NCBI GenBank assembly: GCA_945932505.1
Contig: CAMEQB010000006.1
Span: 1-34,830, forward strand
DNA: 34,830 nucleotides
Origin: an uncultured Spirochaetales bacterium
GTDB taxonomy: Bacteria > Spirochaetota > Spirochaetia > Sphaerochaetales > Sphaerochaetaceae
Reading direction: 5' to 3'
Shown: piece after piece, positions 8,596 to 34,714 of the stretch
Position numbering within the stretch: the first letter of the stretch is position 1
Layout of the letters: each line of letters starts with the position of its first letter
Program-made: the position numbers and the translations under genes
The notes under the pieces: generated by a model
Seen by the model: the letters and a program-made list of their open reading frames with translations, nothing else
The model's database searches: none
What the model was told of the DNA's origin: nothing

Positions 8596-11316
8596 TTAGA
8601 ACTCAACTTTTTCTATAGATAGAATCTTATAAGAGAAGGAATTGGAACCCAGAGTATAATCTACAGTCTCACCGACTTGATGGTTAATGAGAGCTTCACC
8701 GATAGGTGCGTTGATATCGATGATGTTATTGTCTGGATCACTTTCCCATCTACCGAAGAATGTATATGTGATTTCACTATTGTCTTTAGTATTCAGGATT
8801 CTAACCTTTGTACCGAATCCAACTCTACCATCCAATACATCAGTCATACTCATGATCTTGACTGAGCTAAGCTCGTTGGCAAGTCTCTCATATTCCCTAT
8901 CCAAGAAGACTTTGTGGTCCTTTGCATACTGGTACTCACTGTTCTCTCTGAGGTCGCCAAGCTCTCTAGCTGTCTTAATCTCGTGAAGAGTGTGAGGAAT
9001 CTGATTCTCCTTGATGTCGATAAGCTCAGCTTGCTTTCTATCAAAGCTCTTCTTTGTACACATAAAGCCTCTGTGGACAGAAATCTCAACAGGTTTCTCC
9101 TCTTCTTCCTGTTTTTCCTTAAAATCAAAGGATGGGAAGCGTGAAAGAATCTGAGCCTTGAAGGTTTCTCTCTCATCCGATGAAAGCCCCTGGTTCCATA
9201 CTAGGTGTGGAGCGATCATCTTAAGTTCAGGCTCCTTTGCACTGGAAATAAAGGACTTAAGTCTATTGCGTTCAATAAGATCTGATCTAAGAGACTTTAT
9301 CTGTCTTTCATCAACTCCTACGCCTCTTGAAACAGAAGAGAGCGCATTAAGCTCAGTCAAAACAAATTCATCTTCCTTGATCTTTGCATTCTTCAAGTCC
9401 TCAGCCTTGATACCAGACTCAACGAAGGCTCCGAAGGCAATACCGTTTTCCTTGTAGTTGTTGAGACAACGAGATACATATGCCTGATACTTCTTTGGGT
9501 TTACGTTCTGCATTTTCCTCATCAACTCTTTAGTTGGATTAGTTGGGAATATTGCCTCAAGAACATCATAAGCATTCTTATCAGTTTGGGAAACAAGGTC
9601 AACATAGGTCTTCTTGCTGTCTTTGCAGCTTAGGTTCTCATAGACTTCCTTCTTCTGGTTAAGATCCAAGTTTTTATAGAGATCATCAAAAGATACTTCG
9701 GATGCTACAGGTACACCTTTCTCTCCCATGCTTTCCACGACCAATAATGCCTCGATTCTTGTAGGAATATCATTCTTCTCATCTTTGATATAATCGGAGA
9801 AATATCTGACCATATCCAAGAAGGAGTCTGACTTCAAGTCGATACCCTCGATTTCGCTGGCTTCAAGAAGAGTAGATACACGCTTACCAAAGTCTTTATA
9901 TCCAAGGAATGTCTCATAAGTTCTTTCTTCCATAGTGGAAGGGTAGTCCCTTAAGTGATAAGTAGACTTATTGATTACATCGATATATGGATCAATAAGC
10001 GCGATAGACTTAATGGTCTTGGAGACAGTGTCCCATTCTTTGTCTGTAAGAATAGAAGGAACTACTTCATCTTTCATCTCTTTAAGTGTCGCTGTCTTAT
10101 TCTGACTGGAGAAGAGAAGAGTCTTCAAAAGCCATTCATAACCACCTTCACTATAAATCTTATTCTTGATGACTTCTGCTTTCTTACCTTTCTTTATAGC
10201 CTTAATATCTTGGTTAGAGAGTGCCCTCAGTGAAACCATAGCGTTTACAACACTGATTTGTACCTCGTCACCAGGTCTATTTGAGAACTTGACGTTCAAG
10301 ATACCGTCTTTAGTCACATCTGTAATGAGACCCACTTTCTTGGTAGCATTCTGGATAACAAAAGTATTCTTAGAATAAGCAATGTTCTTCTCAAACTCTT
10401 CAAGAGCCTTTACAGGATCACTTGCTTTTGTAACATCGAATTTTTTATTTACTTCATTGTATCTTGATGAAGAACCATACTTCTCCTTGAGTATATTTGA
10501 TAACAGCTCTTTTGTTTCTGCATCATCTTTATCGATAGTAAGGATGTTTCTTGCTACATCGATAATATTCTCAAAAGTCTTTCTTCTTGAGGATGGAGCT
10601 GTTTCTGGAGTAAAGGAATTCTTCATTTCCATGAGGTATGAAAGAAGCATCTTAGACAAATCTAGAGCCAATGAAGAGATTCCCAGCTTTGCAATGTAAG
10701 TTGAATAAAAAGAGAAGTCGCTACTTCCGTTGTCCAGAAGCGCCTTAAAAATCTCTCTAGTCTTTACGCTGTCATTGGCAGATAGAAGTCTATTAAGAGT
10801 CCTCTGATAGTAGACTTTTGCATTCTTCTTGTCACCAATCTTCTCATAGTTGGAAGCAACCTTTGCTATATAATCTGTGTCCTTACTATTACATCTTACA
10901 TATCTTTCATAGTAAGACCACATTTTATCGTCTTCGCCATTACTCTTGGCAATTTCTCCCAGTACTATCAAGGCATCCTGAGAATCACCAGCTTCCAGAA
11001 TAATAGATGCGATATACTCGGCACAAGTATAATTCCTCTTCTCATGAAATGTATTCATAAGATTGTTAAGTCTCACCTGTGCTTCATGTGGATTCATCAA
11101 AAGATTAATTCTTCCTGCAACAAATGTTAGGACAATAGATTCTGGGTTCTCATATTCCATTGTAATGGCATCTTGTCTGAGGCTCTCTTTTGCCTCAACT
11201 TTTTTCATCTGCAGAATCTCAGAGTTGATCTCTTCCAATGTTGAGACCTTGTATGAAAAATATGGATTTTTTCCTAAAGCTTTTTCTTCAGAAAGAAGTG
11301 ACTTCAAGTCAATCAT
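8596..11316 (-). CDS. greA: Long GreA-family transcription elongation factor with large N-terminal extension (start reassigned to MIDLKSLLSEEK after GGAGG)
   Basis: C-terminal GreA domain (ELGDLRENSEYQYAKDHKVFLDREYERL...GEALINHQVGETVDYTL); about 740 aa helical/TPR-like N-terminal region. Confidence 0.85.
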   Translation of the reverse strand: MIDLKSLLSEEKALGKNPYFSYKVSTLEEINSEILQMKKVEAKESLRQDAITMEYENPESIVLTFVAGRINLLMNPHEAQVRLNNLMNTFHEKRNYTCAEYIASIILEAGDSQDALIVLGEIAKSNGEDDKMWSYYERYVRCNSKDTDYIAKVASNYEKIGDKKNAKVYYQRTLNRLLSANDSVKTREIFKALLDNGSSDFSFYSTYIAKLGISSLALDLSKMLLSYLMEMKNSFTPETAPSSRRKTFENIIDVARNILTIDKDDAETKELLSNILKEKYGSSSRYNEVNKKFDVTKASDPVKALEEFEKNIAYSKNTFVIQNATKKVGLITDVTKDGILNVKFSNRPGDEVQISVVNAMVSLRALSNQDIKAIKKGKKAEVIKNKIYSEGGYEWLLKTLLFSSQNKTATLKEMKDEVVPSILTDKEWDTVSKTIKSIALIDPYIDVINKSTYHLRDYPSTMEERTYETFLGYKDFGKRVSTLLEASEIEGIDLKSDSFLDMVRYFSDYIKDEKNDIPTRIEALLVVESMGEKGVPVASEVSFDDLYKNLDLNQKKEVYENLSCKDSKKTYVDLVSQTDKNAYDVLEAIFPTNPTKELMRKMQNVNPKKYQAYVSRCLNNYKENGIAFGAFVESGIKAEDLKNAKIKEDEFVLTELNALSSVSRGVGVDERQIKSLRSDLIERNRLKSFISSAKEPELKMIAPHLVWNQGLSSDERETFKAQILSRFPSFDFKEKQEEEEKPVEISVHRGFMCTKKSFDRKQAELIDIKENQIPHTLHEIKTARELGDLRENSEYQYAKDHKVFLDREYERLANELSSVKIMSMTDVLDGRVGFGTKVRILNTKDNSEITYTFFGRWESDPDNNIIDINAPIGEALINHQVGETVDYTLGSNSFSYKILSIEKVEF

Positions 11317-11327
11317 AATGCCTCCAA

Positions 11328-11389
11328 AGACAATGTAATCTTTGACGAAAAGAAAACCCGGGCAGATGATACTGCTCGGTACATTGTCT
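11328..11389 (-). promoter_or_regulatory. Structured 5' leader of greA: nested hairpins ending just before the Shine-Dalgarno
   Basis: Outer arms AGACAATGTA / TACATTGTCT (10 bp) enclosing CCGAGCAG-TATCAT-CTGCCCGG; SD GGAGG starts 3 nt after the outer stem. Confidence 0.5.
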
Positions 11390-11413
11390 CGTTTAATTTT
11401 GTTTTCTAAAGTA

Positions 11414-11442
11414 AATATAGCATAAAATGACAAAAAATCAAA
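11414..11442 (-). promoter_or_regulatory. Putative sigma70-type promoter for greA
   Basis: Minus strand TTTGAT (or TTGATT) - 17 (16) bp - TATATT. Confidence 0.55.
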
Positions 11443-11474
11443 CATTTGTTTTTTTCACTCTTTTATTACACATA

Positions 11475-19273: not shown

Positions 19274-19975
19274 GTGAAGAAAGGAAAATTCTTGTTTCTT
19301 ACTTTGCTTACCCTCTTTTTTCTTTCATCTTGTGGCATTCCAAATATGTTTGTTCCTGATGAAGGTTCGGTTTCTTTTATTACTGATACAAATAACAACA
19401 AAGCAACTATTGTAATAAAATCTCCATATCTTAAAGCAGAAGAGAATAATTTGTATTATTCACCTGAAGTCAACTTGTTCTATGTCATTAGAAGCAGTAC
19501 TAACTCATCCAGTTATTCATCACTTCTGTCTGCATTTAATAATTCCTTTTGTAATTATCCTTACTGCAATCCTATAACAGGATCAAAAGTCGATGGTAAT
19601 CCAATTATTGAATACAAGAGTGGTGATACTACTTATGGTTTATTTCAATTCTATGGTAACGAAAGTATCATCTCCAATGATTACTTCATAGACGGGGAAT
19701 TGAGGCTTGGCTTTGATTTCTCGGAAGAGAATGGCTTACTACTCAAAATATTTGATGAGAACAATAGTCTTCTTGCACAGAGAGAACTCCATCGTAGCTT
19801 TGGAGAAAAGTTTACCTCTTTATCCGACATAAAAGAGGGCGAGGAACTAGTTAATGATTACACTAGTCCAGTAGAAGTGGTACTGTATGCTGCAGTAACA
19901 TTTTCATTCACAGAATATACCAATATCTGGAACACGAAAATTTCTAAGGAATTATTCTCATTCAACTTAGACTAA
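19274..19975 (+). CDS. Putative lipoprotein (GTG start)
   Basis: Signal peptide with lipobox MKKGKFLFLTLLTLFFLSSCG; GGAGG SD. Confidence 0.75.
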   Translation: MKKGKFLFLTLLTLFFLSSCGIPNMFVPDEGSVSFITDTNNNKATIVIKSPYLKAEENNLYYSPEVNLFYVIRSSTNSSSYSSLLSAFNNSFCNYPYCNPITGSKVDGNPIIEYKSGDTTYGLFQFYGNESIISNDYFIDGELRLGFDFSEENGLLLKIFDENNSLLAQRELHRSFGEKFTSLSDIKEGEELVNDYTSPVEVVLYAAVTFSFTEYTNIWNTKISKELFSFNLD

Positions 19976-21171
19976 TAATCTTCAGCTATCTCCAAAACTA
20001 AATCAGACAGAGCGAAAGAAGCACAAGGATGTATAAAACCTAAGATAATATCACCCTTGCGTCTATTTTCATTCTTCTCTGGATTATATGTTTCACCTTT
20101 AACGACTCTGGTTCTACACCATCCGCAAACACCGGAGCGACAAGAAGACTGTGCCTTTATACCAGCTCTTTCAATAGAGCAAAGAATGGGTTCATCACCT
20201 CTTATGTCTATTTTGTATTCCCTTGCACCTTGTTTTATAATACCTTTATAAATACAATCTTTACTTTCTCTAGGATAATTTGGATCCTTAGAAAAATCTC
20301 TTCCTACAGCCTCCATTTCAAATCTTATCTGTCTCTTTGGTAGTTGAAGCTTTTTTATATCTTCTTTCATAAAAGCATAGAAGCTTCCAGGCCCACATGC
20401 AAAGACAGAATAATTCTCAAGAGGAGTATATTTTTTGATTATTTCTGAAGTGATAAAACCATATTCATAGCCATCTATTTTGTCATCAGATAATACATGA
20501 ACGACTTTTACTTTATCTGTTTCTTTTATCACTTCATCTAGTTCTTTTTTAAAGTAAATTGAATCAGTTGTCCTACTTCCATAAACTAGAGTCAAATTAA
20601 AGTCTTCTATTTTATCTCTTATGGCATAAGCCATAGAAATAAAAGGCGTTACGCCACTTCCACCTGCAAGCGCAATAACATGATTTTTATCTCTCAGTGG
20701 CTCATAATAGAAAGTACCCATAGGAGAAGATATATTAATCTCGTCACCAATCTTTAGATTCTTATATAGATATGGGGCTACAAAACCAGCTGGATAGTCT
20801 TCGATCATAACTGAATACTTTCCTTCCAATGCTAGCTTTGGACTAGAACAGATAGAATATGGTCTTGAAGTAATAGACTCTCCTATCTTTGTTTTAATTG
20901 ATATATAACTGCCAGCTCTGAAGAAGGGAAGGGGAGAGTCATCAAGGCTAGAAAGCACAAATTCCTTTGCATCGTAACGAGGAATAATATCAGTTACTCT
21001 TACTTTTAAAAGATTTGGATGAAGATGATCTGCTTTTTCAGAGATAGGATCACTATCATTTCTAAAGTCTGAAGAGTTAGAATGTATGATATCGTCTCTC
21101 GTCTTTCCTAGATTTTTGAATTTTAGCATATCTTTAAAAACGTTCTTACCAACTTTAACCATTTTACTCAT
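19972..21171 (-). CDS. FAD/NAD-binding ferredoxin-reductase-like protein with C-terminal plant-type [2Fe-2S] domain
   Basis: RPYSICSSP (FAD), ALAGGSGVTPFISMA (NAD), CRSGVCGWC...HPC (2Fe-2S). Confidence 0.85.
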   Translation of the reverse strand: MSKMVKVGKNVFKDMLKFKNLGKTRDDIIHSNSSDFRNDSDPISEKADHLHPNLLKVRVTDIIPRYDAKEFVLSSLDDSPLPFFRAGSYISIKTKIGESITSRPYSICSSPKLALEGKYSVMIEDYPAGFVAPYLYKNLKIGDEINISSPMGTFYYEPLRDKNHVIALAGGSGVTPFISMAYAIRDKIEDFNLTLVYGSRTTDSIYFKKELDEVIKETDKVKVVHVLSDDKIDGYEYGFITSEIIKKYTPLENYSVFACGPGSFYAFMKEDIKKLQLPKRQIRFEMEAVGRDFSKDPNYPRESKDCIYKGIIKQGAREYKIDIRGDEPILCSIERAGIKAQSSCRSGVCGWCRTRVVKGETYNPEKNENRRKGDIILGFIHPCASFALSDLVLEIAEDY

Positions 21172-22678
21172 TGCTCTTTATCCTTTCTAAAGCCAAGTCT
21201 GCTATATCTTTTCCAACCATATATGTAGGTGCATATCCGTCTCCTTTAGTGGTATCACAGCCAATAGGGTATAGACCAGGAATAGAATAATCACTTTCAA
21301 TATTTAAAGTTCGAGCGACAATGTTATCCCAATCCCTAGTTTCATGGCCATAGACAGATCCTTTAGGAGAATTAATATACCTGGAGAATGTCCATGGAGT
21401 TGCTACTTCTACTTCTTCTATATGGTTTGATATATCGATATTCAATTTTCTCTTTAAGAGATCAATCATCAATGATCCTATTTCTGTTTTTGTTTTAAAG
21501 TATGTTTCTTCATCTACTTCTTCAAAATATTTAGAATCAGCAAAGAAAGTAAAAGATACAACTGATGTACCCTTTGGAGAAAAATCAGGATCTGCAACGT
21601 TATAACAAAGAAATATTACATAGTCATAGAGCATAAAAGCCTTATTTTTTACATTCGTATTTCCTGAGAATATGATAGAGTAATCTTTAAAACCTAATTC
21701 ATCTTTATCAGCATCAAGACATAAATAAACGGTGGAAAGTATACCTGCATAGCTATCTTTTCTGGCATTCATCAGTTTTATCTGTCTCTCAGGAACAAGA
21801 TTATGAGGCATCATCTTCCCGTATATTATATCGCTCTTTATATCAGGGAAAATAAGAGGAGCATATATATCTCCATGATCTGTTCTTACTCCAGTTACTG
21901 CCTTGTTTTCAAAAATAAACTTCTCAGCTTTAACACCGAACCATATATCTCCACCTATCTTCTGATATTTATCTAAAAGTAGAGACGACATATAGTGACT
22001 TGTATGCTTTGGTATATATATAGGATAAGTAATATATAAATTCAGCATGGAAGAGTAGTGTACAAAATTTAATTCATCTACTTTAACTCCAAGATATGAC
22101 CAATAAAGAGAAAGAATCTCTTGTGCTTTTAAAGGAAGAGATATTGCATCATAAACTTCTTTGACGGAGTAAGAACCTAAAGTCAACATTCTTGGATAAT
22201 TCTTGATAAGATGAAGAATACTATATTTCTTATTGGCAGAAATATAATCCAGCCCATTCTTAATCTCTTCCATTATAGAGAATAGGAGAATAATCTTTTC
22301 TTTAGATCCAGGAACATATTCTTCCATTTTATTTATAAATGCTTCTTTTCCATTTGGTAGAGTAATATCATAGAACGTACCATCAGAATATGTACCAATA
22401 GCCCTAAAACAGTCATTGATCTTAATTAACGGACAATCAATACCAAACTCATCAAAGATCTCTTTGACGCTACCAATATCTTTAGCATCACCAATACCAC
22501 ATAATTCGTGAAGAGATGGTTCGATTTCAAATCTACCCCTCACAAAGGATGTAGCACAACCTCCGGGATAGTTATTCTTTTCGATTATAAGAGTCTTTAA
22601 ACCTCTGTTTCTTAACTCTAAAGCTGCGACTAGTCCAGAGTTACCTGCACCAACGATTATGGCATCATATTTATCCAT
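21164..22678 (-). CDS. Phytoene dehydrogenase-like NAD(P)/FAD-dependent oxidoreductase
   Basis: YDAIIVGAGNSGLVAALELRNRGLKTLIIEKNNYPGGCATSF Rossmann motif; C-terminal GCDTTKGDGYAPTYMVGKDIADLAL; overlaps the ferredoxin-reductase gene. Confidence 0.8.
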   Translation of the reverse strand: MDKYDAIIVGAGNSGLVAALELRNRGLKTLIIEKNNYPGGCATSFVRGRFEIEPSLHELCGIGDAKDIGSVKEIFDEFGIDCPLIKINDCFRAIGTYSDGTFYDITLPNGKEAFINKMEEYVPGSKEKIILLFSIMEEIKNGLDYISANKKYSILHLIKNYPRMLTLGSYSVKEVYDAISLPLKAQEILSLYWSYLGVKVDELNFVHYSSMLNLYITYPIYIPKHTSHYMSSLLLDKYQKIGGDIWFGVKAEKFIFENKAVTGVRTDHGDIYAPLIFPDIKSDIIYGKMMPHNLVPERQIKLMNARKDSYAGILSTVYLCLDADKDELGFKDYSIIFSGNTNVKNKAFMLYDYVIFLCYNVADPDFSPKGTSVVSFTFFADSKYFEEVDEETYFKTKTEIGSLMIDLLKRKLNIDISNHIEEVEVATPWTFSRYINSPKGSVYGHETRDWDNIVARTLNIESDYSIPGLYPIGCDTTKGDGYAPTYMVGKDIADLALERIKSNE

Positions 22679-23589: not shown

Positions 23590-24186
23590 TTAATAAAGCC
23601 TTTTTTCAAGTTTATAGTTATTCTTTTGAATTAAAGAGCATTCTAAAAGCTCGTTCAATATTATAGATTTTCGATCTTCACCTACCGAATTATCAATTAT
23701 AGATTCTATTGATAATGGGATTGAAGACCCATGAGGATCTTCCCATTCACCAAGAGTATGACAATAGTCTACAAGCTCCCAAGGTGTATAATCTTTATAT
23801 TTCTCGTATTCAGCATCAATAGTCTCCATATCATATCTGGAAAGCTTTTCAAAACTTTTGACATCTTTATATATTTCAATAAACTATCCATTAGTTCTTA
23901 TATGTTCGTTCCATTCTTCACCAACATTCCATCTAATACAATCAAGTATATTAGAAGTAACTGGTCCTCTTGGTAATGACTTATATGAGTCTGTAGTAAT
24001 AGAGTTATGCCCCATAGACAATGAATCTCTATCTGCAAGATAAAGCATTTTGATTGCCTTCATATAATTCATGCTTCCACCGCTCTTGCCTAGTAAGAAT
24101 ACCATAGCCTCTGTAGCTTGTTCTTCGTCAAAATGAAGGATATCATAGTTTATCTCCTTATGATAATAAAATACGTTTTTTATCAT
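23590..24186 (-). pseudogene. Panacea (SocA/DUF4065-like) antitoxin gene interrupted by an in-frame TAG
   Basis: ORFs 24186-23884 and 23829-23590 share a frame, separated by TAG at 23886-23884; MKAIKMLYLADRDSLSMGHNSITTDSYKSLPRGPVTSNILD motif. Confidence 0.65.
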
Positions 24187-24214: not shown

Positions 24215-24281
24215 ATAAAAGACACTGCCAGTCACCTTTTGATATAATGCAGCTAGTTATCTAACAGAAACTGACAATGTC
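24215..24281 (-). terminator. Terminator-like long hairpin at the end of the accessory operon
   Basis: Minus-strand arms GACATTGTCAGTTTC / GGTGACTGGCAGTGTC pair with G-U wobbles, followed by TTTTATT. Confidence 0.5.
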
Positions 24282-24303: not shown

Positions 24304-25365
24304 TTACTTATCAGCAAGTATCCTTAATACTTCACTGGTTGTGCCTTGTACTATATGAAAATATGTTGAGAACATAAGATTAATAGGAAGGTTAAAATTT
24401 TCAACAACGTTTCCACACCAATCTCTACCGCCTTTATCTTCAGGATAATGTGGTATTCTTTCTTTCATTATCCTTGTATCATCCATAAAGCCGAAACACT
24501 TTATTCCCCTACCCCATGCTACTCCACACTCAAATGAAACATCATTGTTTGGTTCAAAACCATGAAAATTATTTAAGTCTGCGACAATATAAGATGATGA
24601 AAGAAGAAGAGACATATTGTTTTCAAAAACCAATTGAGCTTTTCTTAAAGGATCTTCTGAATTGAATTCAACTAACAAATCCCCTGGAAATACGGCTTCA
24701 TATCCAGCATTTTTATATTCTTCTCTAACTTTTTCTTTATATATATCATAGTTAGAGTTATAGCGCTTAGATGAAGCTATATATACTCTATTTAAGATTC
24801 TTTTCTGTTCTGGCACTACCCTACTTTTGGTTTCATGTCCTTTTCTTTCTTCTTCAAGATCCAACAAGTAGAGTTTCAGAGCATCTTTAAAATCACCCTC
24901 AATAATCTTTGAAGAAGCCATTATACTTGGACAGAAAGGTAAATCAGAATAAGGTAATACTCGTTTATCTTGATCAATTATCTCACCATTACATAAATAA
25001 GCTAGTTGGTTCTTTTCAGCCATTAATCGTTTATCACGAGTATATCCATATACTCTACCACCTTTCTGCCAAATCCAGCCCATTTCAAAAATCGTTCCAC
25101 CATCAGGCTCAGAACCTCTGAAGAATTCTAAATCCGCTATAATAGCTGTGGTTTTTCCAACTTGAAATATAAGGTCATCAAATATTTCTTTGGCATTCAA
25201 TCTTAGGTCACTATTATTTAGCTTTAGTTCTGTAGAAGTTGGTAGAACTACAGGAATTCCATAATACTCTGCAAGTTTTCTCTGTGCCCACCATAACTCA
25301 TAGCCATTCTGATAGAAACATTCTGGTCCGGCAATATATAAAGCTTCATTATTATATTGGTACAT
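24304..25365 (-). CDS. Protein with two tandem nucleoside 2-deoxyribosyltransferase-like domains
   Basis: IADLEFFRGSEPDGGTIFEMGWIWQKG in domain 1; VADLNNFHGFEPNNDVSFECGVAWGRG...NLPINLMF in domain 2. Confidence 0.75.
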   Translation of the reverse strand: MYQYNNEALYIAGPECFYQNGYELWWAQRKLAEYYGIPVVLPTSTELKLNNSDLRLNAKEIFDDLIFQVGKTTAIIADLEFFRGSEPDGGTIFEMGWIWQKGGRVYGYTRDKRLMAEKNQLAYLCNGEIIDQDKRVLPYSDLPFCPSIMASSKIIEGDFKDALKLYLLDLEEERKGHETKSRVVPEQKRILNRVYIASSKRYNSNYDIYKEKVREEYKNAGYEAVFPGDLLVEFNSEDPLRKAQLVFENNMSLLLSSSYIVADLNNFHGFEPNNDVSFECGVAWGRGIKCFGFMDDTRIMKERIPHYPEDKGGRDWCGNVVENFNLPINLMFSTYFHIVQGTTSEVLRILADK

Positions 25366-25375
25366 TTTTATGATC

Positions 25376-26329
25376 CTATTTCAAAAGTAAATCTCTCAGC
25401 ATATTGAGAAAACCTCTGTAGTCTGCATCTACTGCAATATCTATTTCAGGCAGATTCTTCCATATATGGTGATGTCTACCATCCCTAACAGTCATTCCTA
25501 AACATGGACCATCATCTGTAATTACAGAAACCAATGCTTTCTTAAATCTTACTAGGTTTTCATCTATTGCATATGCAACTGCCATACAGTCTATGCATGT
25601 ACAATATGCTCCATACCCATTCCCTTTTACAAAGTTAATTGCATTGGCAATGAAGTTAGCTTCTTTTTTTTCAGATGACTCAAAAAGAGATACATCGTTA
25701 TCTGTAAAATCAACATTGAAATATGTAGCAATATCGAGACCTATTGCCTTAAATGGAACTCCGCTTTCATATACAATCTTAGAAGCCTCAGGATCAACAT
25801 ACACATTCCATTCACTTTGTGGTGTATCTCCAGTAGCATTTAAAAAGGAAGCTTGATTAAGACCAAATGCACCACTGATGGCAATTATCTCTTTTACAAG
25901 AGGCTTGATTTCAGGAGCCATTTTAAAAGCCATACCAATATTTGAAAGAGGAGCAGTACATATTAGAGTTACTTCATGAGGATATTTCTTTATTGTATCA
26001 ATAATTAAATTGACTGCATGTCTTTGTTCAAGCTCCATGGTCGGTTCAGGGAGATTTGCATTGGCAAGTCCATCTGTACCATGAGTAAAAGGATCCTTTG
26101 CCACAGGTCTTACCATTGGCTCCGACATACCCATAGCAACTGGAATATCTCGGCGATCAATAAGCTCCAATATCTTTCTAGCATTTTTTGCTGTGACTAC
26201 AGCAGGATAATTTCCATTGACGGTTGTTACAGCCAACAAATCGATTTTATCAGATTTGGCAGCCATAACAATAGCCATTGAATCATCCATACCTGGGTCA
26301 CAATCAAGTATTACTTTCTTTCTATCCAT
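25376..26329 (-). CDS. Inosine-uridine-preferring nucleoside hydrolase family protein (start likely MDRKK at 26329)
   Basis: KKVILDCDPGMDDSMAIVMA; AMGMSEPMVRP; CTAPLSNIGMAF. Confidence 0.88.
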   Translation of the reverse strand: MDRKKVILDCDPGMDDSMAIVMAAKSDKIDLLAVTTVNGNYPAVVTAKNARKILELIDRRDIPVAMGMSEPMVRPVAKDPFTHGTDGLANANLPEPTMELEQRHAVNLIIDTIKKYPHEVTLICTAPLSNIGMAFKMAPEIKPLVKEIIAISGAFGLNQASFLNATGDTPQSEWNVYVDPEASKIVYESGVPFKAIGLDIATYFNVDFTDNDVSLFESSEKKEANFIANAINFVKGNGYGAYCTCIDCMAVAYAIDENLVRFKKALVSVITDDGPCLGMTVRDGRHHHIWKNLPEIDIAVDADYRGFLNMLRDLLLK

Positions 26330-26330
26330 A

Positions 26331-26735
26331 TCAGCCCTCTGCAACTTTTACAATAAACTGTCTTTTTCTTGGGCCATCAAATTCAAGGAAGAATATGCCT
26401 TGTGATCCTCCTAAGACAAGCTTACCTTCATGAATAATAAAAGTCTGGCTAATACCAACTATTGCACTCTTTACATGTCCTGCAGCATCCTGAGGTGTAT
26501 CATGTTGATGCTTAAAATCTACTTTTGTAGGAATAAGACGACATATCTCATCTTGCAGATCTTCAAAACCTGCAGGATCCCAGAAAGAAGTTACAGCAAG
26601 AGAAGCTGTTGTATGTGGATTATAAACAACACAAATTCCTTCCTGTACTCCACTCTCTTTTACACAATTCTTTACATCTTCCGTGATATTGATTACATCA
26701 TTAAACTTTGTTTCTATATTAAACTTCTTAAACAT
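26331..26735 (-). CDS. YjbQ / UPF0047 family protein (secondary thiamine-phosphate synthase-like)
   Basis: VVYNPHTTASLAVT, DAAGHVKSAIVG, LVLGGSQGIFFLEFDGPRKRQFIVKV. Confidence 0.85.
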   Translation of the reverse strand: MFKKFNIETKFNDVINITEDVKNCVKESGVQEGICVVYNPHTTASLAVTSFWDPAGFEDLQDEICRLIPTKVDFKHQHDTPQDAAGHVKSAIVGISQTFIIHEGKLVLGGSQGIFFLEFDGPRKRQFIVKVAEG

Positions 26736-26746
26736 ATTTCCTCCAA

Positions 26747-27886
26747 TTAGAGAACAACTATTTCACTTTGACGTACACAAGCGGCATCCTTGCTAAAGCT
26801 CCAAGGTCCGGTGCAACCTCTACCTGCTCTTTCACCTCTCATTGCCATAAAATAACCAAATAAAAGACAGATAGGTACAAATTGAGTCAAAGGCATAGTA
26901 TAAGCAAAACTTGTTGACGGTACTTGTATATATGTGGTATCTACTCCGAAATCATCTTTAGAACCATCTGTTATAACAAACATCGGTCTACCAAGTTGCT
27001 TTGCATAATTAATTGTCTCTTTACATCTTGATAAAGCAGGGTTCTTTGTATTGGCAATAAGAATCGTAGCTATCTCAGAAACATTTTTCATAAAGAAATT
27101 AAGATGTAACCACTCTTCCATGTTTGTATCTGTAGCAAAATCTCCTGTAGCTTCAAAAGCCTTCGCCTTGCCAAACCATGCTGTAGCGTAATCAAAGCCT
27201 GCACCAACAAAGTCAAAGTGATGCATATCCTTCCATTCTTTAGCAATAGAGAGAATATCAGAATCCATCTGAGGTAGCATTTCTTCCAGTTTATCAGCCT
27301 GAGCAAGAATATCTTTTCGATATGCTTTTGCTGTATCCATTGTATATCTACCTCTTACTTCACCTATTCTAATTGCAAGAAGTAGTAGAGCCATTAATGA
27401 TACCATATAACTTCTTGTACCTGGAGCTGAAGGATACTTTGGAATATCAAGCTTAAGAATTCTATCGCTATTCTGAGCGAGAATAGCCTGGTCATTTCCT
27501 GTTACGCCAAGAACAAATGCACCATACTTTCGCACTCTCATTAATGCTTCACCCATACGTGCTACTTTTCCAGAGTTACTTACTGCTATTACAAGTGGAT
27601 CATGTGGAGCCCCTCCAAGAAACTTCTTTTCATAGAATCTGGAAAGATCCAAAGCATTTAAGCATTCAGTCCTTTTTCCTGTAAGTGACTCGAATATTGG
27701 TTTCATAGCAAGGCATGCAGCATAAGAATCACCAAGGCCTACAAGAATAATGTGTTGAATATCAAAGATTTCTGGAGTAGTCAAAACTGTCCTTGTCTTA
27801 GGTTCTAGATCACTATACTGACTTCTCATTAATTCAGGTAAAGAAAATACCTGGTCTCTCATTGCATTAGAAAATTCATCGCTCAT
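26747..27886 (-). CDS. SIS-domain phosphosugar isomerase/deglycase-like protein (FrlB/AgaS/GlmS-type)
   Basis: IILVGLGDSYAACLAMKPIFESL...VIAVSNSGKVARMGEAL two-SIS arrangement. Confidence 0.8.
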   Translation of the reverse strand: MSDEFSNAMRDQVFSLPELMRSQYSDLEPKTRTVLTTPEIFDIQHIILVGLGDSYAACLAMKPIFESLTGKRTECLNALDLSRFYEKKFLGGAPHDPLVIAVSNSGKVARMGEALMRVRKYGAFVLGVTGNDQAILAQNSDRILKLDIPKYPSAPGTRSYMVSLMALLLLAIRIGEVRGRYTMDTAKAYRKDILAQADKLEEMLPQMDSDILSIAKEWKDMHHFDFVGAGFDYATAWFGKAKAFEATGDFATDTNMEEWLHLNFFMKNVSEIATILIANTKNPALSRCKETINYAKQLGRPMFVITDGSKDDFGVDTTYIQVPSTSFAYTMPLTQFVPICLLFGYFMAMRGERAGRGCTGPWSFSKDAACVRQSEIVVL

Positions 27887-28779
27887 ATTATTAAACCCTC
27901 TTTAAATTTGTTGCATCTATCAATCAAATATTCACCTAATTCTCTGCTATATCTAATGGCGGGAAGTACCAACTCATCAGGTAGTCTCATGGTGTGCCGA
28001 TGAGTTTCGAAGGTAAAATCTCCTTCATAATCAAGTTGGGCGATACTCTTCAACATATCATCCACATCTGATATTCCGTTGTAAGGAAGTACATGGTCAT
28101 AAACTTTGTCATAATAATCAGATATATGTGTGGCCTTTAATCTATCTCCAACAAGTTTTAAAGCATCTATCTGATTCTGTTTCATAATTGCACTATGTTC
28201 AAAGTCCCAGCATATTCCAACATTCTCTGAATCGATGGAATCAACTAAGTCAACGAGTTCTTCAGCAAAGGAACAATACCTTCTTTTTGGAGCTATATTC
28301 ATTTCCCACAGGTTTTCAATAGCTATACCTACATTATGTTTCCCTGCAAAATCAGAAAGTCGTCTGAAGTATTCTATTCCCTTCAGTTTTGATGATTTTT
28401 GTTGTGTAACACTATTCCAATCGGTTGCAGCATGAATGACAACCCATTTTACTCCTAGCATTTCAGAACCGATTATATCTCTTCTTATTTGCTCTTCACG
28501 CCATAAACTATCTTCGCTTTGTTCTTCGCAATAGTTATAGAAATGAGAGTGTGACTGAGAGAACTCAATGCCGTATTTATCTGCCTCATTTTTTATTTTC
28601 TCTACATATGATTTCCAGTCCTTACCCCACATTGGAGTTTCAAACATTGCACAGTCATGAAAATTCATATCAAGTACATCATAACCAGCTTCACTATATA
28701 TCTTTATCGTAGATGGTATATCTGCTTTAGTACCATCAGGTCGATTAAAATACATACAAGTGGAAGTAGATAATCTCAT
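27883..28779 (-). CDS. Sugar phosphate isomerase/epimerase-type TIM-barrel protein
   Basis: 298 aa; YDVLDMNFHD, FSQSHSHFYN, IAIENLWEMN, VGICWDFEHSA, KATHISDYYD. Confidence 0.82.
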   Translation of the reverse strand: MRLSTSTCMYFNRPDGTKADIPSTIKIYSEAGYDVLDMNFHDCAMFETPMWGKDWKSYVEKIKNEADKYGIEFSQSHSHFYNYCEEQSEDSLWREEQIRRDIIGSEMLGVKWVVIHAATDWNSVTQQKSSKLKGIEYFRRLSDFAGKHNVGIAIENLWEMNIAPKRRYCSFAEELVDLVDSIDSENVGICWDFEHSAIMKQNQIDALKLVGDRLKATHISDYYDKVYDHVLPYNGISDVDDMLKSIAQLDYEGDFTFETHRHTMRLPDELVLPAIRYSRELGEYLIDRCNKFKEGLII

Positions 28780-29582
28780 AGCTCTTTATCCTTTAAAACA
28801 AATAGTTCAACTGCTTCTTTTACCCCAGCAAAACATCTGTTTTTGCATATATAATCAGCTACAGCCTTAACATCGTCAGTACTGTTTGCAACAGCAACAC
28901 CGATACCTGCAGCCTGTATCAATTCCATATCATTTTGGTGATCCCCACAGAACATAACTTCATCCATTTTAATTCCTAGACTATCTGCAAGGACCTGAAC
29001 GCCACTAGCTTTTGTGGCACGACTGTCCACAATCTCAATGGATCTATCGACGTAACGAGTATAACAATATGTTGATGGAAGTTTTTTTGCATCTTCCTCT
29101 AATCTACTAACCCTGTCATCATAAACATCGGTAAATAGACTTAGTTTATCGATATTTGTTTTACCCCATTCTTCTTCAGTAAAAATATGCTGATCATGAT
29201 ACCTGTCAAAAGCTTCTCTTTGGGCTTTAAGGTAAGTAGTATCACGCCAATACCACTCCCGGCCTTCTATTGAGTAAACAATAGACATGCCGAGAGAGTC
29301 TGCTTTTTCAATAAATGGCCTTAGTGGTGACACTGGAATCTGTAATCTTCTAACTACTTTGTCCTTCAAAACAACTGTTGCTCCATTGGTTGCAACATAA
29401 GGTATTTCAAGATCTAAGGCGTTGACATACTTCTCAGCCAAAGATTCTGTTCTACCTGTTGCTAGAGAGAAATACACTCCTTTTTCTTTAAGTCTACTCT
29501 TTAAAAGGATAGCTTCTTTTGGAAGTACTTCATCTTTATCTATTAGAGTACAATCTATGTCACACACTACAAGCCTAATCAT
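28776..29582 (-). CDS. Cof-type HAD-superfamily hydrolase
   Basis: VVCDIDCTLIDKD, FSLATGRT, MFCGDHQNDMELIQAAGIGVAVANS. Confidence 0.88.
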   Translation of the reverse strand: MIRLVVCDIDCTLIDKDEVLPKEAILLKSRLKEKGVYFSLATGRTESLAEKYVNALDLEIPYVATNGATVVLKDKVVRRLQIPVSPLRPFIEKADSLGMSIVYSIEGREWYWRDTTYLKAQREAFDRYHDQHIFTEEEWGKTNIDKLSLFTDVYDDRVSRLEEDAKKLPSTYCYTRYVDRSIEIVDSRATKASGVQVLADSLGIKMDEVMFCGDHQNDMELIQAAGIGVAVANSTDDVKAVADYICKNRCFAGVKEAVELFVLKDKEL

Positions 29583-29593
29583 TATTACCTCTT

Positions 29594-30946
29594 TTAGTTG
29601 TTTGCCTTATGATAAGCAGCAAGCTTTTCATTACATTCATTGACAATACCATCATGGCACTGATCAAGAGTTTCTCTTCCTTCTGCAAAAGCAACCATGT
29701 GGTTCTTGATGATTGAGTCAATTTCCCAGTTGATGATATCGAAAGGTTCCTGAACATTTGGATTTGAAGCATGGATAGCATCAACAGCTACCTTGTATGC
29801 AGGGTTTTTACTGAACCATTCATCGATACCAGGCTGCTCATAAACTTTCTTATTTACTGGGATATATCCTGTATCTTTATGGAACTGGAACTGAACTTCA
29901 GGAGATACCATGTACTGTACAAACTCCCAAGTTGCTGCGACCTGCTCATCATCCTTATCTGGATTAAACATAACGACACATGATCCACCAACTGCAACAC
30001 CACCCTTATCATCAGCATTTACCTTTGGGTTTGGAGCAACGTTCCACTTGAAATTATCGCCAACAAGAGCCTTGATCTTTCCGATTCTAGCAGATGACAT
30101 GTTGACCATTGCATGAATACCAAGAGCAAACTCTTCGTTGATATCATCTTCTGTTGGCTTATATCCACCACTCTTAATGACTTTTTCCCACTCTGTAAGG
30201 AAGTTTCTGAGAGTACCATCTTCGCCGAAAGTAACCTTTGTCATAGGTGCAAGTCTTCCACCTTCATTGTCACCAAAGAAGTTATAATCGCCCTGTGAAC
30301 CGATATAGTTAGCCATCTGATATCTTCTGATAGCAACATTGAGTCCATATCTTTCCACTTCACCCTTTTCATTGACAATCTTAAGCTTTTCGCAGTCTTC
30401 AGCAAGTTCAGCAATAGTTGAAGGAGGGTTATCGATACCAGCTTCCTTTAACATATCTTCATTGTAGTAAAGAAGAAGAGCTGAGCAAGATACTGGCATA
30501 CCTATCTGTTCTCCAGCATAATTATAGCTTCTAAGCATATTAGGCTCGATGTCGTTAATATCAAGTGTAGTATTAGAAGCACCGAGCATTTCTTCAACTG
30601 TTACAAGTTGTTCATATGTATATGCAGAGGGAATACCAGCTCCAGCAATCTGTGCACAATCCGGGAAGTTTTTAAAATCATTTGCCTGAGCAAGAGTCTT
30701 AAGCTTTTCGCTGTTGTCGTTACCCTGGAATACAGCTTTGACAACGATGCCCTTCTCTTTTCCGATTGTTTCATTGAAAGAAGTTGCAATCTTTTCAATG
30801 GCAGTGGCATTTACACCACTCATAGTATGCCAGAACTCAACAGTACGGACATTAGCACTTGCTTCAGGTTTTGCTTCAGAAGCACCACCGGCAAAGAGCA
30901 TTGCTGCCAACATTGCCATCAATACGATAACAAGAGTTTTTTTCAT
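29594..30946 (-). CDS. ABC transporter extracellular solute-binding protein, UgpB-like family (start at MKKTLV after GGAGG)
   Basis: Signal peptide; VRTVEFWHTMSG...IEKIATSFNE; DEQVAATWEFVQYMVSPEVQFQFHKDTGYIPVNKKVYE. Confidence 0.87.
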   Translation of the reverse strand: MKKTLVIVLMAMLAAMLFAGGASEAKPEASANVRTVEFWHTMSGVNATAIEKIATSFNETIGKEKGIVVKAVFQGNDNSEKLKTLAQANDFKNFPDCAQIAGAGIPSAYTYEQLVTVEEMLGASNTTLDINDIEPNMLRSYNYAGEQIGMPVSCSALLLYYNEDMLKEAGIDNPPSTIAELAEDCEKLKIVNEKGEVERYGLNVAIRRYQMANYIGSQGDYNFFGDNEGGRLAPMTKVTFGEDGTLRNFLTEWEKVIKSGGYKPTEDDINEEFALGIHAMVNMSSARIGKIKALVGDNFKWNVAPNPKVNADDKGGVAVGGSCVVMFNPDKDDEQVAATWEFVQYMVSPEVQFQFHKDTGYIPVNKKVYEQPGIDEWFSKNPAYKVAVDAIHASNPNVQEPFDIINWEIDSIIKNHMVAFAEGRETLDQCHDGIVNECNEKLAAYHKANN

Positions 30947-30981
30947 TTTTTCCTCCAAAAAGAAAGATACATATATAGTTA

Positions 30982-31830
30982 TCAGCCCTTGACTGATCCA
31001 CCCATGATTCCACCCACAATTCTCTTCTGGAAAATGATAAATACCAAAAGTGTGGGTAAAAGAACTAATATCGATGCCGCCATAACAGGTCCATAAACAA
31101 CACCATCCGGGAAGTTGAGCATTGTTACACCAACCTGAACAGTTCTCATTAGATTTTCATTTGTAACCAACATCGGCCAAAGATACTGGTTCCATACACT
31201 GATAAATGATGAAATAAATACTGTTGTGATTACTGGTGTGGATAATGGCATGAGAATCTGTAAGAAGAATCTTAAGTTTGAGCATCCATCGATTACAGCA
31301 GCTTCCTTAAGGGTCAAAGAGAATGTAAGGAAGTATTGCCTCATTAAGAAGATATTTGTGGCATTACAGAAGAAAATAATCATCATACCCAGGTATGTGT
31401 TTATTAGTCCAAGCTTAGCTACTGTCTGATAGTTAGAGACAAGAACTACATCACCAGGAATCATCATTGTTCCCATAATAAGCATAAAGATGAAGTTTCT
31501 ACCTTTGAACTTATAGAAAGAGAGGGCATATGCAGCCATAGATGAAATGATTACCCTCATAATTGATGATGTCAAAGCCATAATCAAAGAGTTAATCATG
31601 AACCTTCCTAAAGTTGTGGATGTAATTGCCATTTTATAGTTATCAAGAATCCACTTTTTAGGAATAAAAGTCGGCGGTCTCTTTAATATCTGATTTGCAG
31701 GCATAAAAGAAATCAATAGAGCATAAATAATCGGAGCTATGATTACCAGACCAAGAAGGATAGCTAATGTCTGATGCACCAATGAAATAGTTGTTCTTCT
31801 ACTAATTCTTTTGTTTTGAATCTGTTTCAA
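30982..31830 (-). CDS. ABC sugar-type transporter permease (UgpE/MalG-type)
   Basis: Multiple TM helices; EAA loop EAAVIDGCSNLRFFLQILMPLSTP. Confidence 0.88.
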   Translation of the reverse strand: MKQIQNKRISRRTTISLVHQTLAILLGLVIIAPIIYALLISFMPANQILKRPPTFIPKKWILDNYKMAITSTTLGRFMINSLIMALTSSIMRVIISSMAAYALSFYKFKGRNFIFMLIMGTMMIPGDVVLVSNYQTVAKLGLINTYLGMMIIFFCNATNIFLMRQYFLTFSLTLKEAAVIDGCSNLRFFLQILMPLSTPVITTVFISSFISVWNQYLWPMLVTNENLMRTVQVGVTMLNFPDGVVYGPVMAASILVLLPTLLVFIIFQKRIVGGIMGGSVKG

Positions 31831-32717
31831 TTGTAGTACACTCCCTTTTTCTCAAATCTGAAGCTGATAAGCATCAAGATAAAGGTGATTGCGAAAGCGA
31901 TAATTGCAGTAGCATATCCATCGTTGTAGTTTAGATTGTTTACTGCCTGCTTATACATGTAGCTGATCATGGTATCAACATTCGCAGTTGTTGCTATAGC
32001 TCCGCTATTAGTGAATATCAAAGCAAGTGATGACATCATCATATCTTTTGCCATTGATGTAATGACCAAGAAGAAGAGTGTTGGAGAAATCAGAGGCATG
32101 ATAATAGATACTGTCTTCCTAAAAATCTTTGCTCCGTCTATTGATGCAGACTCAAGTATAGAGCCATCTATTCCTCGTATTGCTGCAAGTAAGAAAAGGA
32201 AGTTATATCCTATATTCATCCAAGTGGAAATGATTGATATCGCAATCATCGCCCACTTGTCGTTATTAAGCCAGTTTATCTTTGTCCCAAGAATATAGTT
32301 CAAGGCTCCGATTGTAGGATTATATGCAAGTTTGAATATCATCGCTGCAACACTCATACTCATAGCCATAGTAAGAGCGAACATCGTTTCATAAACCCTT
32401 GAACTTCTAGTTGGTTTATTTGCAATAAGCGCAAGAATCAGAGCAATAAGAATACTTACTGGAGCACATAATATTGTATATATAAATGTATTCTTGCAGA
32501 CTCTATGGAAATTACTGTCCTTTAATACCCTTATGAAGTTTTCCAGTCCTACAAAATGCTTGAAGTTACCCATACTATCAACAAGAAAAAAGCTCCCGAT
32601 GAATGTCTTGATAAATGGATAATATGTAAATACCAAGAAGAATATGATTGCAGGGAGCAGATATAATAATGGCTCCACATACTTCATTACTTTTCTTTTT
32701 CTTAATTGATTAGCCAT
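31827..32717 (-). CDS. ABC sugar-type transporter permease (UgpA/MalF-type; start at 32717 or 32726)
   Basis: Multiple TM helices; EAA loop ESASIDGAKIFRKTVSIIMPLISP. Confidence 0.88.
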   Translation of the reverse strand: MANQLRKRKVMKYVEPLLYLLPAIIFFLVFTYYPFIKTFIGSFFLVDSMGNFKHFVGLENFIRVLKDSNFHRVCKNTFIYTILCAPVSILIALILALIANKPTRSSRVYETMFALTMAMSMSVAAMIFKLAYNPTIGALNYILGTKINWLNNDKWAMIAISIISTWMNIGYNFLFLLAAIRGIDGSILESASIDGAKIFRKTVSIIMPLISPTLFFLVITSMAKDMMMSSLALIFTNSGAIATTANVDTMISYMYKQAVNNLNYNDGYATAIIAFAITFILMLISFRFEKKGVYYN

Positions 32718-32736
32718 GGATTTCACCCCTTTACAC

Positions 32737-33762
32737 TTATTCTGCTATTTCCCATGTTTTTGCTATTTCAATACAGTCTTCTGCATACTGTGGCATATTG
32801 ACTTTGTTGACCCTTTCGATAGTTTCAATCCATTCTTTTGGCACCGTTTCAATGGAACTATAAGCACCGGCTATAGCTCCAGCCATTGCGGCGTTAGTAT
32901 CGCAGTCGCCACCAAGATTTACACATAGTTCGTTTACTTCTTTTACATTACCTTTTCCAAGTGCAAACAAAGCCAAGGCAATAGGAATAGAGTCTGCAGC
33001 TAGATCACCTCCACCAAAGTAATCGTATAGCTCAGATAGTCCTTCTCTTGGATTATCAAAATATGGTTTAATAATTTCATAAGCCCATAGTATTTTCTTA
33101 GAAACTTTCGGCGATGCTATTTCATGGCCATACTGGGATCCTTCATCGGCGGCCTTTGCTGATTCCTTGATTATAGTTTCTATATCTTCTTCCCCTCTTA
33201 TAGAGAGAGCTACAGCCCAGGCAATAGCAGAGGCGCAGGCAACACAAACTGTTGTGTTATGAGTAGGAATACATGTCTGATAAACATCTTTTACACACTC
33301 TTCCATTGAGCTGTTTCCAATAAGTCCGTGTATAATTCCTATTGGACTTATTCTCATAGCTGAACCATTTGTATTTCCATAAATACCGCTTTCTTCAATC
33401 GGAGCTCCATTCTGAATAGCTTTCAAGGCTTTTTCAGTGCTAGGTCCTAATGGAGATTTATATTTATTTTCTACACGCTTAGCCCACTTCAATATTTCAT
33501 TTACTACTTCATAAGGATTTACTTTGTGAGTTGACTTAAAAGATTTGATAAGTGCAAGAGCTTGTTCTGTATCATCAGTATACTCTCCAGCATTAAGACC
33601 ATCATGGAAGATATGTCCTTTCTCTGGTGGATAGAATGTATTAATCCATCCCCATACTCTTTTAATATGTTCAGGAGTCAAAAAAGATGAAGGGACACCA
33701 AGAGCATCACCAGTAGCCATACCATATAAGCTGCCAAGCACTTTGTCATATTTTGTTCTCAT
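32737..33762 (-). CDS. ADP-ribosylglycohydrolase (DraG) family protein
   Basis: GSLYGMATGDALGVPSSF, GEYTDDTEQALAL, NGSAMRISPIG, LGGDCDTNAAMAGAIAGAY. Confidence 0.92.
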   Translation of the reverse strand: MRTKYDKVLGSLYGMATGDALGVPSSFLTPEHIKRVWGWINTFYPPEKGHIFHDGLNAGEYTDDTEQALALIKSFKSTHKVNPYEVVNEILKWAKRVENKYKSPLGPSTEKALKAIQNGAPIEESGIYGNTNGSAMRISPIGIIHGLIGNSSMEECVKDVYQTCIPTHNTTVCVACASAIAWAVALSIRGEEDIETIIKESAKAADEGSQYGHEIASPKVSKKILWAYEIIKPYFDNPREGLSELYDYFGGGDLAADSIPIALALFALGKGNVKEVNELCVNLGGDCDTNAAMAGAIAGAYSSIETVPKEWIETIERVNKVNMPQYAEDCIEIAKTWEIAE

Positions 33763-33781: not shown

Positions 33782-33810
33782 CTTATATTAACATTAACAC
33801 AAGTATACAA
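33782..33810 (-). promoter_or_regulatory. Promoter of the accessory operon with overlapping operator-like motif
   Basis: Minus strand TTGTAT - 17 bp - TATAAG; the -35 lies inside CAAGTATACAA (33800-33810). Confidence 0.6.
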
Positions 33811-33851: not shown

Positions 33852-33879
33852 GTAAAAAAAAGAGCAACCTTAGTTGCCC
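33852..33879 (-). terminator. Intrinsic terminator of gntR overlapping its stop codon
   Basis: Minus strand GGGCAAC-TAAG-GTTGCTC followed by TTTTTTTT; loop contains the TAA stop. Confidence 0.8.
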
Positions 33880-34637
33880 ATGATATATCCTTTGTCTGTT
33901 GATTTAAAATGAAGATGAAATCGTACAAAATCCCCCAACCAACTGGTTTCTGAATATTCAATTACACGAGAGTTTTCTAAGCTAGATCTACCTTTTACAA
34001 GAAGGAGTGGAACATCCATTGTACATTTAAGTAAGACACTATCAGATTGACTACATCTTACCACTTCAACATAGTCATCAACTGTAGAAGGAATAATTCC
34101 AAAGTTTTCTCTTAAGGTATCAGTGATAGAACAATTAACAAGACCTTTTTCCACCATATCTGGTACAAGATCTCCTGGTAACCAGGACCTTCCGATTGCA
34201 ATGGGCTTTTCACCTATAAAGAATAGTCTTTTAAGATAAATTACTCCATCATTATCATCCTTCATATTAAGCTGGGATTTTATCTCAGGGTAAGCAGGTG
34301 AAACATATTTTAAATCTATTAATTTAGCACTTATTCCTTCATCACTATTTTTGACACCATCACCACTGACCATTTTATAATTTAAGTTATATACAAATGG
34401 TTTTGGGCTAATACCAGTAATAAAGGCTCCTTTTCCTCTATGTCTTTTGATCAAGTTATCTTTTTCAAGTTCAGCCAAAGCTTGTCTAAGGGTGACACGG
34501 CTAACCTTATACTCATCTATCAATGACGATTCGGATGGCATTTGTTCTCCAATCTGCCACTCGCCTCTACTTATTCTACTAATTAAATCCTGTTGTATCT
34601 GATAATATACAGGAACAGGAGAATCTCTATCTATCAT
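33870..34637 (-). CDS. GntR-family (HutC/FadR-like, UTRA domain) transcriptional regulator
   Basis: PVYYQIQQDLISRISRGEWQIGEQMPSESSLIDEYKVSRVTLRQALAELEKDNLIKRHRGKGAFI wHTH; C-terminal UTRA-like ligand domain. Confidence 0.93.
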   Translation of the reverse strand: MIDRDSPVPVYYQIQQDLISRISRGEWQIGEQMPSESSLIDEYKVSRVTLRQALAELEKDNLIKRHRGKGAFITGISPKPFVYNLNYKMVSGDGVKNSDEGISAKLIDLKYVSPAYPEIKSQLNMKDDNDGVIYLKRLFFIGEKPIAIGRSWLPGDLVPDMVEKGLVNCSITDTLRENFGIIPSTVDDYVEVVRCSQSDSVLLKCTMDVPLLLVKGRSSLENSRVIEYSETSWLGDFVRFHLHFKSTDKGYIMGN

Positions 34638-34679: not shown

Positions 34680-34714
34680 CTTGTATACTTGATTTATGTT
34701 ATAGACAAATTGTC
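34680..34714. promoter_or_regulatory. Second operator-like site upstream of gntR
   Basis: CTTGTATACTTG (34680-34691), reverse complement of the 33800 motif; adjacent dyad GACAAATTGTC (34704-34714). Confidence 0.5.

Follow-up and report, generated by a model that had tools for sequence, protein, structure and literature searches.

A GntR-linked operon pairing a GlmS-like SIS protein with YjbQ, and its possible role in the catabolism of sugar-bearing nucleosides

The fructoselysine operon of Escherichia coli, frlABCDR, combines a SIS-fold enzyme (FrlB), a TIM-barrel epimerase (FrlC), a fructosamine kinase, a GntR regulator and a permease. Double-SIS enzymes of the GlmS kind act on amino-sugar or ketosamine phosphates, some relatives being plain isomerases, and transporters of the PnrA/Bmp class are known for nucleosides. 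For YjbQ, of the UPF0047 family, many structures have been solved but no function is accepted; it is described as a protein of unknown function with a weak thiamin-phosphate synthase side activity (PMC7954711, PMC11551756). Here we analyse an operon that carries members of several of these families, at 24304-33762 of a 34,830 nt stretch of DNA from an uncultured Spirochaetales bacterium (Sphaerochaetaceae; GCA_945932505.1, contig CAMEQB010000006.1, positions 1-34,830; the whole stretch is hereafter the window). An earlier note on this DNA had proposed ten co-directional genes with short gaps or overlaps, forming one GntR-linked uptake and catabolism operon that joins three families acting on N-glycosidic bonds with a SIS enzyme and an epimerase. 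We agree: the open reading frames (ORFs) were confirmed and Pfam supports every named family. We regard it, from the comparison below, as a catabolic operon of the sugar/nucleoside kind, and there is a genuine possibility that its pathway is new.

Uniqueness of the gene combination to this genome, which the earlier note held would speak against its proposal, was not found, since the combination recurs in other genomes. A set of 42 related loci was collected by scanning with no query but the SIS gene (33 loci, several phyla) and then by whole-genome searches, and is spread over Spirochaetes, Clostridia, Bacillaceae, Paenibacillus and Vagococcus. Two further genomes of the genus, G034 and G006, carry all ten genes in unchanged order, with protein identities of 38-82%. 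Comparing the codons of the window with those of G006 gives 53-90% identity at positions 1 and 2 and just 22-44% at position 3; since position 3 diverges far more, all ten genes are under selection at the protein level. Few genomes of the phylum have the SIS gene (2 of 296 drawn), yet it turns up in Lachnospiraceae, Oscillospiraceae, Bacillaceae, Paenibacillus and Vagococcus, and this sporadic distribution suggests horizontal transfer.

SIS and YjbQ occur together in 42 of 42 loci, which is not built into the set because the scan query consisted of SIS peptides only, and they are adjacent at every locus except L084, where one small gene lies between them. The other members are less constant: the nucleoside hydrolase (IUNH) is found in 36 loci, the two-domain nucleoside 2-deoxyribosyltransferase-like protein (NDT2) in 25, the 340-aa DraG protein in eight and any DraG-fold protein in 25, and a GntR relative lies near 21. 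SIS-YjbQ is the invariant core, and each end of the operon is a module that can be separated from the rest; the earlier note had noticed neither. Two feeder modules can be recognized. Type A, to which the window belongs, consists of a UgpB-like transporter, a HAD phosphatase, an epimerase and sometimes the 340-aa DraG protein; type B has a different CUT1 transporter, one or two 700-aa DraG-fold proteins, a PfkB kinase and often a phosphorylase-superfamily protein. They are largely mutually exclusive, both being found in 4 of 42 loci (Fisher p = 2.7e-5). The 700-aa proteins, of which L019:4849-9065 encodes two, recur in type B operons and have an N-terminal DraG domain followed by a 400-aa C-terminal part without Pfam match. 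Directly after YjbQ, several type A loci contain a small radical-SAM gene (L035:11556-12329, L047:11506-12291, L066, L085).

The pairing was also evaluated in 299 genomes of one family. Operon-type YjbQ, defined by a score above 137 bits, is present in exactly the seven SIS-bearing genomes and in no other (Fisher p = 2.5e-14, species not being independent). The lower-scoring YjbQs examined are stand-alone, not beside SIS, and at most 44% identical to the operon type, and the operon YjbQs form a clade of their own. The window's YjbQ scores 121 bits with TIGR00149 (cut-off 68), and Foldseek with its model, the middle of which has low confidence, returned only YjbQ structures at E < 0.001 and then noise. 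UPF0047 itself is widespread and was found in bacteria and archaea among the control genomes. Since one of its subfamilies is inseparable from one enzyme, the role of UPF0047 becomes testable on a defined pathway.

The SIS protein is nearest to GlmS: NCBIfam GlmS models score best, the PDB sequence matches are GlmS, at about 20% identity, and its predicted fold is that of the GlmS isomerase domain over the full length (predicted local distance difference test score 92, template modelling score about 0.8). E245 and H261 align with the catalytic Glu and His of GlmS; among 47 relatives, 45 have the Glu and all 47 the His. In the same relatives the phosphate loop retains its serines and has lost a Thr, and R110 does not vary; the latter two show a changed ligand. 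The earlier assignment to the FrlB type is not supported by the sequence, as GlmS is nearest and no fructosamine-deglycase model was among the NCBIfam matches at E 1e-3.

Purine nucleoside phosphorylases (DeoD and PunA types), a Udp-like phosphorylase, phosphopentomutase and adenine deaminase adjoin related operons, with a purine nucleoside or Udp-like phosphorylase at 17 of 42 loci and adenine deaminase at five. Nucleoside genes stand alongside SIS-YjbQ in 38 of 42 loci. A second operon of G006 reads PfkB-SIS-YjbQ-IUNH-DeoD, and NDT2 and IUNH of Clostridium sp. MCC353 stand apart as a pair, clustered with LacI, phosphopentomutase and DeoD. L086:5594-10176 and L087:7453-12105 hold two divergent operons, with PfkB, in which the SIS and YjbQ genes are repeated, and which use a Bmp/PnrA-type transporter. 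Together, the neighbouring phosphorylase and deaminase genes, the DeoD clusters and the PnrA-like transporters point to a purine nucleoside moiety in the substrate. As for the ribosylated import that had been predicted, the recurrence of phosphorylase, deaminase and phosphopentomutase genes supports a ribosyl or nucleoside substrate; ADP-ribose in particular has no specific support. Two further gene arrangements were observed: a tandem YjbQ-YjbQ fusion of 269 aa in the L086/L087 operons, and a PF03313 (serine dehydratase alpha chain domain) gene that shares an operon with IUNH and NDT2 at L044:481-3789.

In the window the ten ORFs are all on the minus strand and run from 33762 down to 24304, preceded by the regulator gene. 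The features are as follows, in the direction of transcription.

33870..34637, minus strand: GntR/UTRA (HutC-type) regulator, its own transcription unit upstream of the operon (Pfam GntR 2e-18, UTRA 4e-22)
33862..33879, minus strand: intrinsic terminator of the GntR gene, 7-bp stem, T8 (1 found, 0.4 expected)
33784..33801, no strand: putative GntR operator TATATTAACATTAACACA (motif common to related loci)
32737..33762, minus strand: DraG-fold ADP-ribosylglycohydrolase-family protein, 341 aa (Pfam 1.6e-60)
31827..32726, minus strand: ABC permease, UgpA/MalF type, PermF (Pfam)
30982..31830, minus strand: ABC permease, UgpE/MalG type, PermG (NCBIfam UgpE best, 169 bits, cut-off of 297 unmet)
29594..30958, minus strand: ABC substrate-binding protein (SBP), UgpB-like (Pfam, NCBIfam, ligand-residue alignment)
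28776..29582, minus strand: HAD-IIB (Cof-type) phosphatase (Pfam Hydrolase_3 7e-47; NCBIfam Cof-subfamily 1.1e-39, slightly below cut-off)
27883..28779, minus strand: xylose-isomerase-like TIM barrel, probable ketose 3-epimerase (Pfam 8e-33)
26747..27886, minus strand: double-SIS protein, GlmS isomerase-domain type (Pfam, sequence and fold matches)
26331..26735, minus strand: YjbQ (UPF0047), operon-specific subfamily (Pfam 1e-35)
25376..26344, minus strand: IUNH nucleoside hydrolase (Pfam, residue alignments)
24304..25365, minus strand: NDT2 (Pfam 1e-34, two stretches)
24223..24281, minus strand: hairpin with UUUU tail, possible operon terminator (z = -1.7 vs shuffles)

Neighbouring genes are separated by gaps of at most 23 nt or overlap shortly: gaps of 10 (DraG/PermF), 23 (PermG/SBP), 11 (SBP/HAD), 11 (SIS/YjbQ) and 10 nt (IUNH/NDT), and overlaps of 4 nt each for PermF/PermG, HAD/epimerase and epimerase/SIS. 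YjbQ and IUNH overlap by 14 nt when the TTG start is used, and less or not at all with an in-frame ATG. The clear terminator at 33862-33879 ends the GntR gene and thereby separates it from the operon. Of the signals that had been claimed for the operon itself, the far-end hairpin has the expected form, a long stem and long loop followed by UUUU, at modest significance, and it is not among the matches of the consensus terminator scan. The promoter, described as clear, corresponds to a promoter-like 9/12 site at 33856-33828 before the DraG gene, in a region somewhat richer in such sites than its shuffles.

The palindrome TGTATTAANNTTAATACA, searched for with up to 3 mismatches, yielded 31 sites in the related loci versus 4-7 in shuffled copies. 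Most of these sites fall in the interval that separates GntR from the operon, or else ahead of the first gene. The window's copy, TATATTAACATTAACACA, has 2 mismatches to TGTATTAANNTTAATACA and lies just before the first gene, where GntR would bind and repress the operon. This conserved version has a 2-nt spacer; palindromes with a 1-nt spacer or none gave little. In Hungatella a TGTATTAANNTTAATACA-type site precedes an operon that encodes a member of the nucleotide pyrophosphatase family together with a transporter and a HAD protein. An 11-mer, CAAGTATACAA or its reverse complement, is found before DraG (33800-33810) and before GntR (34681-34691) and is possibly a second operator form.

The remaining enzymes mostly have intact active sites. 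In the epimerase E155, D192, H218 and E258, which we take to be the metal and catalytic residues of psicose/tagatose 3-epimerases, are kept in 18 of 18 sequences. It had been called FrlC-type, of which a remote match stands (28.5 bits against a cut-off of 305). NDT2 has the Glu nucleophile of the D-x5-E motif in both domains (E94 and E279, 25 of 25). IUNH has an intact calcium/ribose site and an inserted active-site loop before the EWN motif, and in 35 of 35 sequences Ile251 replaces the usual catalytic His (His241/His239 of solved relatives). Because of this replacement and the loop, its leaving group is probably unlike that of ordinary nucleoside hydrolases; the leaving-group His is missing from some other IUNH groups too. 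The SBP is UgpB-like with most ligand residues changed: the positions of Arg, Trp and Glu are altered, and one Ser and a Gly are kept, if the glycerol-3-phosphate ligand residues of UgpB, including Arg374, have the roles and numbering we assume. There is no ABC ATPase gene within the operon, several candidate sugar-type ATPases being encoded elsewhere in the genome. PfkB kinase is present in sister operons and absent from the window's operon, with only remote PfkBs elsewhere in its genome (G000). Import of an already phosphorylated substrate (UgpB-like transporter with HAD in type A, PfkB in type B) may explain the absent kinase: the two modules do largely exclude each other, but the phosphate-binding residues of UgpB are not kept.

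Comparison establishes that the operon is conserved, that SIS and YjbQ are paired, that a nucleoside module and a common operator recur, and that active sites are intact. On these we base the reading, to which we give a probability of roughly 0.45, that the operon, under GntR control, serves the catabolism of a nucleoside carrying a second, probably amine-linked, sugar (a 'glyco-nucleoside'). The ABC transporter would import the sugar-nucleoside conjugate, after which the sugar part would be prepared by the DraG-fold glycohydrolase with the epimerase/HAD pair in type A, or by the PfkB kinase and the 700-aa DraG proteins in type B sister operons. The GlmS-type SIS protein with YjbQ would then isomerise and split the amino-sugar (phosphate) by C-N cleavage. 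The freed nucleoside would be converted to base and (deoxy)ribose by IUNH and the two-domain NDT, and in relatives phosphorylases, adenine deaminase and phosphopentomutase would finish its breakdown. We infer the chemistry of each step, the step order, the C-N cleavage and the action of both halves on one molecule.

Several points weigh against this scheme. Comparison by itself would yield neither the exact substrate nor the action of both halves on a single molecule, and the L023 genome has the two halves of the operon on separate contigs. Double-SIS isomerases whose substrates contain no amine have the Glu/His pair too. The window's operon has no kinase, though known SIS relatives act on phosphorylated sugars; the part of YjbQ in the reaction is a proposal; and phosphorylase and deaminase genes lie near only some loci.

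The catabolism of Amadori (glycation) conjugates of amino acids, as in the Frl, Fra or Gfr systems, with the nucleoside genes as a separate scavenging module co-regulated in the same operon, is unlikely. It would account for the resemblance to Frl parts seen in the GntR regulator and in the families of SIS and the 3-epimerase, for the Opp/peptide-type transporter in one relative (L044) and for the separable IUNH-NDT pair. It is opposed by the SIS protein without FrlB match and the remote FrlC match, by the operon without kinase, and by the nucleoside genes that accompany SIS-YjbQ in 38 of 42 loci, as well as the minimal PfkB-SIS-YjbQ-IUNH-DeoD operon. Similarly doubtful is a nucleoside with an unusual ordinary sugar and no amine, from which the hydrolases would free the sugar, with SIS simply interconverting aldose and ketose and the TIM barrel acting as an epimerase. 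PGI/PMI-type double-SIS isomerases do keep the Glu/His pair, and sister operons contain PfkB kinases and DraG-fold proteins; but in sequence and fold SIS is nearest to GlmS, the maker of an amino sugar, and the lost Thr and R110 indicate an altered ligand without saying which.

Catabolism of ADP-ribose or of an ADP-ribosylated amino acid or base we consider quite improbable. The metal-site motifs TDDT and GGDCDT of the DraG-fold protein are intact (8 of 8), and nucleotide pyrophosphatase-family genes occur at three related loci, in two under the same operator. However, its DraG and Tri1 equivalog scores (87 of 337 and 70 of 490 bits) are far below cut-off, DraG is missing from many SIS-YjbQ loci, and IUNH keeps the residues presumed to serve a free ribose 5'-OH. 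The closest solved structure of the DraG-fold protein is the uncharacterised MJ1187 (9e-42). Queuosine salvage (QueK/QueL), which involves a radical-SAM queuine lyase, was also considered; the radical-SAM neighbour of some type A relatives has no solved relative, and the window's operon contains no radical-SAM gene.

Returning to the glyco-nucleoside reading, its wider form is possible, if tentative: an undescribed catabolic pathway for N-linked glyco-nucleosides, such as glycated purine nucleosides, in which YjbQ/UPF0047 is enzymatic and coupled to a GlmS-like deglycase. Literature searches on the gene combination, on Amadori products with nucleoside hydrolases and on cytokinin N-glucosides, most subscription literature lying outside their coverage, gave no description, in line with the earlier note, which did not recognise a described pathway. 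If true, gut and soil bacteria would have a route to use sugar-modified nucleosides, nutrients for which no dedicated pathway was found, and the common operator and two interchangeable feeder modules make the system tractable in cultured species.

Elsewhere in the window, three arrangements on the minus strand were observed. Just downstream of the operon, an ORF of 100 aa at 23884-24186 has part of a SocA/Panacea domain (46 residues) and is probably what is left of a truncated antitoxin. At 19972-22678 an NAD(P)/FAD-binding oxidoreductase (phytoene-desaturase-like) overlaps an NAD/FAD/2Fe-2S oxidoreductase, possibly as one redox unit. The protein of 949 aa encoded at 8596-11445 has a GreA/GreB factor only C-terminally (residues 795-945), its preceding ~790 residues being without Pfam match at E 1e-5.

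Compared with described systems, the operon resembles frlABCDR in its SIS-fold enzyme, TIM-barrel epimerase, GntR regulator and uptake system; it differs in having no kinase, a SIS protein nearer to GlmS than to FrlB and an ABC transporter instead of a permease, and it adds YjbQ, IUNH, NDT2, DraG and HAD. Two of the features that define Frl operons, an FrlB-family enzyme and the fructosamine kinase, were not found, and the likeness pointed out earlier is an analogy of layout only. With the GlmS isomerase domain and NagB-II the SIS protein shares the full-length fold, the catalytic Glu/His and the phosphate-loop serines, whereas it lacks a glutaminase domain, has lost the Thr and has gained Arg110. 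IUNH is like RihA/RihB, CU-NH and the Crithidia IU-NH in DxDxxxDD and the Asn/Glu/Asn ribose site, and differs by Ile for the catalytic His, the loop before EWN and Trp for Phe. NDT2 has the Pfam domain and Glu nucleophile of nucleoside deoxyribosyltransferases, but fuses two domains with a Glu in each, and no solved two-domain relative was found. The Ugp glycerol-3-phosphate transporter is the best-scoring family for SBP and permease, yet scores fall far below equivalog cut-offs, most ligand residues are changed and the ATPase gene is lacking from the operon. Finally, YjbQ agrees with UPF0047 in fold and signature residues (Asp, His, EFDGPR) and is set apart by its own clade, always with SIS.

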